A stretch of DNA of 64,000 nt, from positions 6,386,001-6,450,000 of the forward strand of contig NZ_CP108100.1 in assembly GCF_036195045.1 (NCBI RefSeq), given 5' to 3'. Source of the stretch: Streptomyces sp. NBC_00236. Lineage in GTDB: Bacteria > Actinomycetota > Actinomycetes > Streptomycetales > Streptomycetaceae. Below, one piece after another: positions 26,741-29,491 of the stretch. The position numbers were made by a program, and so were the translations under genes. The notes under the pieces were generated by a model. It did not search any database, was not told the DNA's origin, and saw only the letters and a list, made by a program, of their open reading frames with translations. Position 1 is the stretch's first letter; each line of letters begins with the position of its first letter.

Positions 26741-27151
26741 TCACACCTCGACGGGGAGCCCCGCCGCGCGCCAGGCCTGGAAGCCGCCGACCAGGTCCGT
26801 CGCCCGGTACAGCCCGAGCCGGTGCAGCGACTCGGCGGCGAGGCTCGACGCGTACCCCTCGTTGCAGATCACCACCACACGCAAGCCGTGGCTCACGGCC
26901 TCCGCCGCGCGATGGCTTCCCCGCGGGTCCAGCCGCCATTCCAGCTCGTTGCGTTCGACGACCAGGGCCCCCGGGATCAGCCCGTCCCGCGCCCGCAGCT
27001 CCGCGTAGCGGATGTCCACGAGCAGCGCGCCGTCCTCGGCGGCCGCCTTCGCCTCCTGCGGTCCGAGCCGCTCGTATCCGGCCCGCACCCGCTCCAGCAG
27101 CTGGTCGATGCCGGGCGGGGTGTCGCCGCCGTCGTGCCGATCGTCGCTCAC
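26741..27151 (-). CDS. Rhodanese-like sulfurtransferase domain protein
   Basis: A 136-residue single-domain rhodanese. The active-site loop is VICNEGYASSLAAESL, with the catalytic persulfide cysteine in CNEGYAS. The upstream LLVDIRYAELRARDGLIPGA motif is also typical. It is coupled to the cysteine dioxygenase gene by a 4-base overlap (27148-27151). The likely role is transfer or oxidation of sulfane sulfur arising from cysteine catabolism. The operon is preceded by a cysteine-rich leader ORF. Confidence 0.88.
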   Translation of the reverse strand: MSDDRHDGGDTPPGIDQLLERVRAGYERLGPQEAKAAAEDGALLVDIRYAELRARDGLIPGALVVERNELEWRLDPRGSHRAAEAVSHGLRVVVICNEGYASSLAAESLHRLGLYRATDLVGGFQAWRAAGLPVEV

Positions 27152-27684
27152 TGCCAGTCCTCCGGGCGTTCGGTCTGCTCAAGGCGGAGCACCGCGCCGG
27201 TGCGGCTGTAGCGCCGGATCTGCGGCAGTGGCGGGTAGTACGCGTGGACGGAAACGGCGTGCTCCGTGGCGGACTCGTTCAGCACCTCGTGGACGTGGTG
27301 CCGGCCGAAGGCCTTGCCCTGACCCGCCGTCAACTCCCTTGACCGGTCGATGTCCTCGGTCAGTTCCAGGGTCTTCCAGCCGTCGGTGGGCAGCCGTGCC
27401 GCGAGTGAGTGCTCCTTCAGCGTGCCGGCCGCGGTGAGGAAGGCGCCGATCGAGTCGGCGTGGTCGTGCCAGCCGGTGCCGGTGCCGGGTGGCCAGCCGA
27501 TCAGCCAGGCCTCGCTGCCCCCGGGCCCGTCGAGCCGGATCCAGGTGCGGCCCTCGGGGTCGAGGGGGAGCGAGGCGATGAGTGCGGTGTCGGCGGCGGT
27601 ACGTCGGACGAAGTCGAGCAGTTCCGCGGCGGTCGGGCCGGAGGCCGTACGTACGGGCACGACAGGGGAGGGAGAGGCAGACAC
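27148..27684 (-). CDS. Cysteine dioxygenase-type cupin protein
   Basis: A 178-residue cupin of the cysteine dioxygenase family, which oxidises L-cysteine to cysteine sulfinate with a non-haem iron. Metal-binding histidines are visible in GTGWHDHADSIGAF (HxH) and AFGRHHVHEVLNES. The C-terminal YYPPLPQIRRY is typical of bacterial members. Its stop overlaps the rhodanese start (ATGA). Upstream lie a 12-base-armed hairpin and a 28-codon leader ORF rich in cysteine near its end, so expression may respond to cysteine supply. Confidence 0.85.
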   Translation of the reverse strand: MSASPSPVVPVRTASGPTAAELLDFVRRTAADTALIASLPLDPEGRTWIRLDGPGGSEAWLIGWPPGTGTGWHDHADSIGAFLTAAGTLKEHSLAARLPTDGWKTLELTEDIDRSRELTAGQGKAFGRHHVHEVLNESATEHAVSVHAYYPPLPQIRRYSRTGAVLRLEQTERPEDWQ

Positions 27685-27711
27685 GGGGACCGTCCTGAGA
27701 GTTCGCGTGGA

Positions 27712-27746
27712 TGCTCCTGCCGCACGTCACCGCGCGCGGCGGAGCA
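27712..27746 (-). promoter_or_regulatory. Hairpin between leader ORF and cysteine dioxygenase gene
   Basis: On the transcript, TGCTCCGCCGC (27746-27736) pairs with GCGGCAGGAGCA (27723-27712), leaving one bulged A and a 12-base loop. It lies 13 bases beyond the leader stop codon and 28 bases before the dioxygenase start. This is where ribosome stalling in the leader could change folding or access to the start. Confidence 0.55.
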
Positions 27747-27758
27747 GGAGGAGGCGAT

Positions 27759-27845
27759 TCAGCAGGACGGGCGACACACGCAGCCCGCATAGCGGAGCAG
27801 GTCCATATGGACCCTCCGCCACAGGCGCACATCGGTGTCGGTCAT
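27759..27845 (-). CDS. Cysteine-rich leader peptide (putative attenuator uORF)
   Basis: A 28-codon ORF starting MTDTDVRLWRRV and ending YAGCVCRPSC, with three cysteines in the last seven residues. Its ATG lies only seven bases after a TCTACT -10 hexamer, so the mRNA probably starts at or next to the ATG (leaderless). A second in-frame ATG (27806) gives a 15-residue form preceded by GGAGGG. Short uORFs of this kind occur before sulfur-metabolism operons in actinobacteria, and in mycobacteria leaderless polycysteine uORFs act as cysteine-responsive attenuators. The assignment here is by similarity of layout and is not proven. Confidence 0.7.
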   Translation of the reverse strand: MTDTDVRLWRRVHMDLLRYAGCVCRPSC

Positions 27846-27852
27846 GTTCCGG

Positions 27853-27881
27853 AGTAGACCATGTGCGCCTGCGTCGGTCAA
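27853..27881 (-). promoter_or_regulatory. Promoter of leader peptide-cysteine dioxygenase-rhodanese operon
   Basis: TTGACC (27881-27876) and TCTACT (27858-27853) are separated by exactly 17 bases on the minus strand. The -35 overlaps the stop codon of the upstream monooxygenase gene. The expected start point falls on the leader ATG at 27845. Confidence 0.65.
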
Positions 27882-29491
27882 TTGACGTCTGCGGTCCGGT
27901 CGGAGCGTACGGAGGTGAGGGCCGCGCCGCCGCGCGCCGCGTCCGCCGCCGCGAGGAGCTCCGCCGGCCGGACGCCGCCGAACGACTCCACGAGATGGCC
28001 GTCCGGCCTGATCAGCAGCACGGTGTGCGCCGACGCACCCGGGTAGCTCTCGGCGACCAGCAACTCGGCCTTCACCGGGAGGCCGTCGACCGTCTCGACG
28101 AGCCGGGGCATGACTCCGGCCCGCATCCAGTGCCGCCGGTCCCAGACGCCCGTGCCCGGTGCGACGAGCAGCACCAGCAGATGCCCCTGCCCCAGCCGCT
28201 CCCGGAGCCGTACGGGCGTTCCGTCAGGCGCGGTGACCCGCACATCGGCGACCGGCGCACCGGGGGGCGTACCCACCGATGTGTGCGCCTCCGCGCGTGG
28301 GGGCGCAAGGGGGGAGTGGGAGTAGGACGGGGGCGCACCGAGTGGCCCGCACCCCAGATGGCCGTCGGTGAGCAGCGAGTCGTGCCCCCGTGCGCTCCCC
28401 GGGACCAGGGTCCGCAGACCTCCGCCGCCCCGCAGTATCGGCAGCGACTGGTCGGCGGCGCGCAGCCGCGAGGCGACCGCGGCCCGTCGCTCGGCCTGGT
28501 AGCTGTCGAGGAGCACCTCGGACGCGCCGTGATGCCAGGCCAGCGCCAGCTTCCACGCCAGGTTCTCGGCGTCCCGCAGCCCTTCGTCGAGCCCCTGGGT
28601 GCCCAGGGCGCCCAGCAGATGCGCGGCGTCCCCGGCCAGGAACGCCCGCTTCACCCGCCACCGCCGGGCGAGCCGGTGATGGAGCGTGTACACGCCGGTG
28701 TCCAGCAGTTCGTACGGGGGTGTCTCGCCGCACCAGCCCTCCAGGGTGTCCCGGACCCGGGTGACCAGGGCATCCGGCGTGACGAGCTCACCGCGCGGCG
28801 GCAGCAGCCAGTCCAGCCGCCAGACCCCGTCCGGCAGCGGCCGCGCCGTGACCTCGGCGCCGCCGGTGCGCCAGGGCGGCAACCGGTGCAGTACGGCTTC
28901 GCCGGGCCAGGGCAGCTCGGTGCGCAGCGCGGCGACGGCATGCCGCTCCACCGCCGTACGCCCGGGAAACCGGATGTCGAGGAGCTTGCGGACGGTGGAC
29001 CGGGCCCCGTCGCAGCCGACCAGATAACTCCCTCGCCACCAGGTCGAACCGGGCTCCCGGGTGTGCACCGTGACACCGTCGGCGTCCTGCTCCAGCGTGT
29101 CGATCCGGCTGAGCCGCGCCGTCTGCACGAGTTCCTGCGCGGCCACCGCGTCCCGCAGCCCCCGCACCAGCGCGTGCTGCGGGACATGGACGGGAGCGGC
29201 AGGCAGGTCGCCGGCGGGGGAGCCCTCGCCGAGCGACAGCTTCCGTACGACCTGCCGGCGCCGCACGGACCGCCAGCCGGTCCAGCGAAGGCCCTCGTCC
29301 TGGAGCGTCTTGCATCCCAGCCGTTCCACCAGGCCGGCGGTGTCCTCACGGAGCACGACCGTGCGGGCCGGACGTGTCTCGTCCTTGCCCGGGTCCTCGT
29401 CGAGGAGCACGGAGGGCACACCCTGCGCCGCGAGGGCGAGCGACAGCACCAGGCCCACGGGCCCGGCGCCGACGACGATCACCGGGTCCAC
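27878..29491 (-). CDS. FAD-dependent aromatic-ring monooxygenase-like protein
   Basis: A 537-residue flavoprotein of the PHBH/UbiH-like monooxygenase class. The FAD Rossmann motif VIVVGAGPVGLVLSLALAAQ is at the N-terminus. GCDGARSTVRKLL (DG motif) and the second FAD motif RAFLAGDAAHLLGALGTQGL (GDAAH) are present. A C-terminal thioredoxin-like region with the HLLVLLVAPGTGVWD segment is typical of aromatic hydroxylases. The substrate is unknown. The GTG at 29491 is chosen because it places the Rossmann fold at residue 3; the frame is open upstream to 29716. The next operon starts within its stop region. Confidence 0.82.
   Translation of the reverse strand: MDPVIVVGAGPVGLVLSLALAAQGVPSVLLDEDPGKDETRPARTVVLREDTAGLVERLGCKTLQDEGLRWTGWRSVRRRQVVRKLSLGEGSPAGDLPAAPVHVPQHALVRGLRDAVAAQELVQTARLSRIDTLEQDADGVTVHTREPGSTWWRGSYLVGCDGARSTVRKLLDIRFPGRTAVERHAVAALRTELPWPGEAVLHRLPPWRTGGAEVTARPLPDGVWRLDWLLPPRGELVTPDALVTRVRDTLEGWCGETPPYELLDTGVYTLHHRLARRWRVKRAFLAGDAAHLLGALGTQGLDEGLRDAENLAWKLALAWHHGASEVLLDSYQAERRAAVASRLRAADQSLPILRGGGGLRTLVPGSARGHDSLLTDGHLGCGPLGAPPSYSHSPLAPPRAEAHTSVGTPPGAPVADVRVTAPDGTPVRLRERLGQGHLLVLLVAPGTGVWDRRHWMRAGVMPRLVETVDGLPVKAELLVAESYPGASAHTVLLIRPDGHLVESFGGVRPAELLAAADAARGGAALTSVRSDRTADVN

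Follow-up and report, generated by a model that had tools for sequence, protein, structure and literature searches.

A conserved leader open reading frame may tie a Streptomyces cysteine dioxygenase-rhodanese operon to cysteine supply

Introduction

Here, we ask how an operon that destroys cysteine might be coupled to the supply of cysteine, and with which sign. In the window, i.e., the whole stretch of 64,000 nucleotides from Streptomyces sp. NBC_00236 that was analyzed (contig NZ_CP108100.1, positions 6,386,001 to 6,450,000), a short upstream open reading frame (uORF) with several Cys codons sits between an FAD monooxygenase gene and a gene pair for a cysteine dioxygenase (CDO) and a rhodanese. 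The original prediction for this locus held that the uORF is leaderless, that ribosomes stall at its Cys codons, and that the response has the opposite sign to that of a biosynthetic attenuator. We give an even chance to a scenario in which the uORF is part of a ribosome-read translational attenuator that turns CDO synthesis on when cysteine is short.

Results

The TTGACC-17-TCTACT element, the 28-codon ORF and the hairpin described in the original prediction are all present on the minus strand, and the genes behind the uORF have the proposed identities. The features of the locus, in window coordinates, are:

27876 to 27881, minus strand: −35-like TTGACC, overlapping the stop codon of the upstream FAD monooxygenase gene (27881-27878)
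27853 to 27858, minus strand: −10-like TCTACT, 7 bases ahead of the ATG, with a spacer of 17 to the −35
27759 to 27845, minus strand: uORF of 28 codons with leaderless architecture; ATG 27845-27843, stop TGA 27761-27759
27792 to 27820, minus strand: hairpin within the uORF (GGCGGAGGGUCC-AUAU-GGACC..UCCGC), from the fold of locus L022
27780 to 27782, minus strand: Cys codon 22, UGC; Cys in 125 of 126 leaders
27774 to 27776, minus strand: Cys codon 24, rare UGU, proposed sensor; TGT in 126 of 126 leaders
27763 to 27770, minus strand: arm CCGUCCUG from codons 26-28, complement of the CDO ribosome-binding site
27754 to 27757, minus strand: UCGC right behind the uORF stop, which could pair with GCGA at 27706-27703
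27714 to 27750, minus strand: variable central hairpin CTCCTGC...GCAGGAG between uORF and CDO
27690 to 27697, minus strand: CAGGACGG, CDO ribosome-binding site and second stem arm; exact in 119 of 126 loci
27148 to 27684, minus strand: CDO, start GTG 27684; PF05995, 159.8 bits
26741 to 27151, minus strand: rhodanese, its start overlapping the CDO stop (GTGA); PF00581, 49.8 bits

The uORF translates as MTDTDVRLWRRVHMDLLRYAGCVCRPSC. Among PDB sequences, the CDO matches named cysteine dioxygenases (best E 4e-12), and an alignment by eye places WIR at the position of Y58-T59-R60 in rat CDO numbering, i.e., the enzyme is of the Arg type. Because an Arg at R60 is what we take to be the mark of true cysteine dioxygenases, the paradox of the sign is not removed by calling the enzyme something other than a CDO; other thiols are possible substrates nonetheless. 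Across the genus, a rhodanese gene lies downstream of the CDO in 127 of 130 loci, and the two genes overlap by GTGA or ATGA in 128 of 130.

The leader is a stable feature of the locus. The uORF peptide scores 36.9 bits against NCBIfam NF042934, "putative leader peptide" (cut-off 27), and is thus a leader of a recognized kind. CDO relatives (E up to 1e-10, paralogs included) occur in 144 of 150 genomes of the genus, and in the 130 orthologous CDO loci that were compared (30 + 100), a strict pattern found the leader ahead of the CDO in 126, arguing that it is not there by chance. The four misses comprise two contig ends (L112, L113), a truncated, rearranged locus (L151) and a locus in which the leader is present with DF in place of DL (L037). 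G145 (L304), a 131st and more distant ortholog at 51% identity, has no leader. Of 80 named loci in a second sample, which shares species with the first, 78 have the leader and two (L470, L479) lack it by the pattern. Leaders start with GTG (79) or ATG (47), and all 118 leaders of 28 codons end with TGA.

The putative promoter is equally constant. TTGA is found at −35 in 126/126 loci (TTGACC in 113/126), with 17 or 18 bases to the −10, and a T--A-T hexamer (TGTACT, TTCACT, TCTACT, TTGACT or TTCAGT) lies 6 or 7 bases ahead of the start codon in all 126. The combined element TTGA-N16-18-TNNANT-N6/7-[AG]TG marks 126/126 uORF starts vs. 1 of 7,273 other ATG/GTG codons in the same loci; because TNNANT was chosen after inspection of the sequences, this control applies to a pattern that had been fitted to the very loci compared. 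The mean distance between −10 and start is 6.3 nt at leaderless promoters of S. lividans (PMC8079986), and the spacing in the window fits a transcript start on the ATG. No Shine-Dalgarno (SD)-like 4-mer was found 4 to 16 bases before the uORF start in any of the 126 loci, which also fits a leaderless start. Both observations agree with the leaderless architecture of the original prediction. The window hexamer is without the A at position 2 of TAnnnT; a strict sigma-70 scan returned no site at this promoter, and a strict TANNNT pattern matched the −10 in 0/126 loci. The absence of this A throughout the genus, next to TACGAT and TAACGT in other leaders of the set, raises the question of the sigma factor or an activator. 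An 11-base inverted repeat, CAGGCGCACAT/ATGTGCGCCTG (27871-27861 and 27832-27822), flanks the −10 and the start codon; it was considered as an operator and dropped, its left arm occurring only in some relatives.

Both the peptide and its codons are conserved. The 118 leaders that are 28 codons long share W9, R10, V12, H13, D15, L16, R18, Y19, G21, C22 and C24 without exception, and position 28 is Cys in 106. Conservation of the C-terminal Cys residues, which the original prediction had named as a check, stands at 126/126 for C24, 125/126 for C22 and 106/118 for C28. Codon choice was compared with a background of 58,935 codons from the collected CDO, sirA, cysO, sseA and symporter genes. R10 is CGG in 114/118, V12 GTC in 118/118 and D15 GAC in 117/118 leaders. 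Codons that are rare in the background recur at R11 (AGG in 109/118 vs. 2.4% of Arg codons), H13 (CAT in 102/118 vs. 8%), Y19 (TAT in 67/118 vs. 2.5%) and, without exception, C24 (TGT in 118/118, and in 126/126 of all leaders, vs. 1.8% of Cys codons). The other Cys codons are mostly TGC (119/125 at C22; 106/113 at C28). At conserved residues, the third codon position has an entropy of 0.30 in the uORF vs. 0.67 in a CDO block, for which only 53 sequences could be aligned. The codon skew and this low entropy argue that RNA or codon identity is constrained as well as the peptide.

The same codon recurs in leaders of other operons. In the genome of the window, NF042934 marks 7 places above its cut-off and, less strongly though still clearly, three more (26.1, 22.7 and 21.5 bits). 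These leaders precede genes for sulfite reductase, CysO, an SseA-type rhodanese, sulfatase, transport, a monooxygenase, a symporter, a flavin reductase and a ROK regulator, and the domains behind those other than the CDO leader are NIR_SIR, ThiS, Rhodanese, Sulfatase, NMT1, Flavin_Reduct, Bac_luciferase, SDF and that of one ROK regulator. The ROK-family regulator, which is not a sulfur enzyme, follows a leader (G000:C1:6941729-6941782) that at 21.5 bits lies below the cut-off. Leaders of four of these operons (sirA, cysO, sseA and the sdf symporter) were gathered from up to 30 genomes each, and the matching place was defined as the Cys that follows the HxDLxR Asp by nine codons. This Cys is encoded by TGT in 29/29 sirA, 28/28 cysO, 30/30 sseA and 20/22 sdf leaders (107/109 together), in 5/5 further leaders of the same genome and in 14/14 such leaders before CDO genes outside the genus. 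The remaining Cys codons in these leaders are TGC in 32/34 (cysO), 28/32 (sseA), 3/3 (sirA) and 35/59 (symporter) cases. A single tRNA-Cys would be expected to read UGU more slowly than UGC. The codon conservation suggests that UGU at codon 24 is likely the sensor. Of the original prediction, the Cys leader with conserved C-terminal Cys residues is supported, but the Cys codons are not equal, codon 24 alone being always UGU.

The invariant residues also accommodate a different cause of the pause, i.e., a nascent-chain arrest peptide in which H-x-D-L-x-R in the exit tunnel would halt the ribosome at codon 24, with free cysteine or some other ligand adjusting the pause. An arrest peptide would be in line with the identity of W9, R10, V12, H13, D15, L16, R18, Y19 and G21 in 118/118 cdo1 leaders, with the fixed spacing of D, L, R and Cys (R three and Cys nine after D) in leaders of five operons that differ in RNA context, and with the many members that have a single Cys codon there rather than a run. 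The sharing of the motif is partly by construction, since the motif served to find the leaders, and the consistent use of UGU points to tRNA decoding rather than to the residue alone. We consider arrest of this type quite unlikely as the explanation.

Codons 26-28 (CCG UCC UG) are complementary to CAGGACGG, and in most loci the CDO start codon follows about 5 to 6 bases on. The hairpin of the original prediction is real but predicted not to be free-standing, the last uORF codons forming a stem arm over the CDO ribosome-binding site; its reported distance of 13 bases from the uORF roughly applies to the inner stem, while the full stem starts 8 bases after the stop. Accessibility of this site was modeled by partition-function folding of 114 leaders, with the unpaired probability of the AGGA core as readout. 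The mean was 0.046 with no ribosome, 0.047 with the ribosomal A site at codon 22, 0.204 at codon 23, 0.296 at codon 24 and 0.352 at codon 29. Opening was partial, exceeding 0.5 in only 6 to 16% of leaders. In 24 leaders, the step from codon 22 to codon 24 held at an assumed 3′ reach of the ribosome of 13 to 17 nt, faded at 18 to 19 nt and was nearly gone at 19 nt. In silico synonymous recoding of P26-S27-C28 in 30 leaders raised the ribosome-free value from 0.007 to 0.26, i.e., to that with a ribosome at codon 24. The segment from codon 25 to the SD folded with z < −2 against mononucleotide shuffles in 26 of the 30 leaders examined, which favors the stem.

Pairing of the uORF end with the ribosome-binding site in 8 of 8 positions occurs in 96/122 cdo1 leaders vs. 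0/88 leaders of the four other operons, these being related and not independent sequences. Random recoding by codon usage gave 8-of-8 pairing in 25% of trials and at least 7 in 80%, because Pro, Ser and Cys have these codons as common ones. Covariation failed as proof of the stem because the sequences are too invariant: among 46 chosen leaders, none of the 8 arm pairs had a compensatory change, the whole structure did no better than 45 of 500 shuffles, and the hairpin within the uORF had almost no covariation. RNAalifold found only 6 pairs, in a shifted register (−0.38 kcal/mol), on a MAFFT alignment and did not call the arm pair on an anchored set. In favor of the stem, helix cells were paired in 95.1% vs. 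28.6 to 52.0% for the whole structure when slid; for the second helix (UCGC/GCGA), 69.7% of cells were paired in the partly misaligned set of 46. Also in its favor, an order-level relative (L303) has a different, again complementary pair, CCCGTCCG/CGGACGGG, read by eye. Dependence on ribosome position was absent in sirA (21) and cysO (27) leaders despite the same peptide motif, arguing that the mechanism is not common to the whole leader family; sseA leaders (23) were most open at and just before their Cys. Within the uORF, GGTCCATATGGACC is a perfect and nearly invariant 14-base palindrome (27813-27800), with GGAGG six bases before its ATG at codon 14. An internal start there (GGAGG-N6-ATG) was rejected: its bases are shared with the uORF hairpin, and 12/126 leaders have CTG and 1/126 CTC as codon 14.

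Control at the level of transcription, by an intrinsic or a Rho-dependent terminator between uORF and CDO, is improbable in our judgment. Many loci have pyrimidine-rich stretches behind the uORF, and Rho has been suggested for mycobacterial cys leaders (PMC1262725); against termination, no terminator-like hairpin with a T run was found in 27100-28100, and the sequence and length between uORF and CDO vary widely among loci. Rfam had no match up to E = 1 in 27600-27960.

Leaders occur at other CDO genes as well. Of 53 CDO loci chosen outside the genus, a loose criterion gave 16 a short upstream ORF ending in a Cys-rich or HxDL-type sequence and left 37 without one; once 7 paralogs from the genus are added, the count is 23/60 vs. 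8/60 on the antisense strand. A second Streptomyces CDO has a Cys-rich leader in 24/27 loci by a loose criterion that lacks its own control and with at least two that look like chance. These leader-like ORFs (G000:C1:3118422-3118781 in the genome of the window; L399-L425 across the genus) have many Cys codons (such as ...ARCCCCCSSC), TGT in 90/118, and in the 10 of 27 that were profiled, opening of the SD was flat with ribosome position (0.19 to 0.22). The coupling is laid out differently at two loci outside the genus (L348, L300), where the Cys leader ORF passes or overlaps the CDO start. The presence of leaders at part of the CDO loci indicates that control of CDO by cysteine through leaders seems recurrent but not universal.

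Discussion

We suggest the following scenario for the CDO operon. The transcript would start at or next to the uORF start codon, and the uORF would be translated leaderless. With no ribosome near the uORF end, codons 26-28 are modeled to pair with the CDO ribosome-binding site and keep it closed; a ribosome with its A site at codon 23 to 29 would cover this arm and free the site in part. When charged Cys-tRNA is low, ribosomes would wait at the putative sensor, UGU codon 24, the site would stay open for longer, and CDO and the translationally overlapping rhodanese would be made. Codon 22 (UGC), just short of the position at which the site opens, would damp the response. CDO would thereby share a cysteine-limitation set with sulfite reductase, CysO and the remaining operons of the genome that have such leaders.

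The sign follows from this anatomy, since a site that is open only with a ribosome at codons 23 to 29, together with a rare codon at 24, predicts more open time as Cys-tRNA falls. In a kinetic toy model with assumed rates, the open fraction, 0.03-0.26 with Cys-tRNA at its full level, climbed to 0.66-0.83 and leveled off as the shortage became severe. The anatomy thus favors induction by cysteine limitation. The original prediction expected the reverse; folding and toy model instead give the sign of a biosynthetic attenuator.

The same switch could in principle work in reverse: waiting at codon 22 in shortage would leave the site closed, and in plenty a pause at codon 24 or at the stop would open it, so that CDO is on in plenty. 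Such a response is metabolically sensible, while the limitation-on sign makes little obvious metabolic sense for an enzyme that oxidizes cysteine. In the folding models, moreover, a ribosome at codon 22 leaves the site closed and one at codon 24 does not, and Cys22 is nearly fixed in cdo1 leaders (125/126) vs. 0/109 at the matching place in sirA, cysO, sseA and sdf leaders. However, the toy model shows no such inversion; Cys22 is missing from L053 (Tyr), L289 (Ser), L314 (Arg) and several CDO leaders outside the genus; and codon 22 is the common UGC and codon 24 the rare UGU, so that the longer wait is expected at codon 24. In Streptomyces SCUT-3 grown on feather, cdo1 mRNA was up 50.2-fold and cdo2 mRNA 8.3-fold (PMC7181669), which lends the reversed sign some support without settling it; the comparison was with LB, which does not tell plenty from shortage, and the SCUT-3 genes were not matched to the gene in the window. 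On balance, we regard a plenty-on switch as unlikely. Under a limitation-on switch, CDO made in shortage might supply sulfite, either to redistribute sulfur or for keratin sulfitolysis, or might act on a different thiol.

Elements of arrest and of tRNA sensing may also be combined. As a joint proposal that we put forward tentatively and with more doubt than confidence, the H-x-D-L-x-R nascent-chain motif of actinomycete Cys leaders would hold the ribosome, a single UGU nine codons past the Asp would report charged Cys-tRNA with the UGC codons as non-sensors, and one branch would have fused this switch to a stem made of its own last codons, with CDO on in shortage.

Altogether, the original interpretation appears right in kind and wrong or unproven in sign. 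A ribosome-read Cys attenuator is of a known kind; new here are its catabolic target, the modeled pairing of the last leader codons with the CDO ribosome-binding site, and the conserved rare UGU at codon 24. If the limitation-on scenario is true, the leader-controlled cysteine set, known for acquisition genes, also takes in a cysteine-destroying operon, and the sensor narrows to a single synonymous position, such that one-base changes can test both which leader codon senses the amino acid and what role CDO has in a cysteine-short cell. A literature search, with subscription papers mostly outside its scope and hence no proof of absence, returned no paper on a cysteine dioxygenase leader.

Compared with known systems, the uORF resembles NF042934 leaders in its score, in its Cys near the end and in its place ahead of a sulfur gene pair; that family is a model without a tested function, and the cdo1 subgroup adds Cys22, the PSC end and pairing with the ribosome-binding site. 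It differs from classical attenuators with an intrinsic terminator, given that 27100-28100 holds no terminator hairpin with a T run. TnaC, the leader of the E. coli tna operon, precedes a catabolic operon, has conserved residues upstream of its pause and is tuned by Trp; the leader here also precedes a catabolic operon and has conserved residues, a likeness at the level of residue conservation. Closer in layout are the leaderless short ORFs before amino acid genes in S. lividans (leuL, trpL, metL and others; eight in Table 4 of PMC8079986), none of these eight being a CDO leader. In the same table, a leader before metNIQ that is read there as Met dependent ends in RCMCRRMCAF and might be a Cys leader.

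The mycobacterial leaderless polycysteine sORFs are likewise Cys leaders of leaderless architecture, and NF042933 (Ms5788A) and NF042936 (Ms4527A) represent them. Against NF042933, the window uORF scores 17.8 bits and the Streptomyces sseA leader 43.6 bits, close to but below the cut-off of 45; against NF042936, the sirA leader scores 28.2 bits, also below 45. Canestrari et al. reportedly described in 2020 that ribosomes stalling on these sORFs upon cysteine limitation free a sequestered ribosome-binding site. In our folding models, a ribosome at a Cys codon would do so at codon 24 and not at codon 22, and the limitation-on sign predicted here is that of the mycobacterial attenuators. PMC13236596 cites the polycysteine leaders as a case of translation attenuation. 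By contrast, the window uORF has no consecutive Cys run (C22-V-C24-RPS-C28), a single UGU is its proposed sensor codon, and its target oxidizes cysteine.
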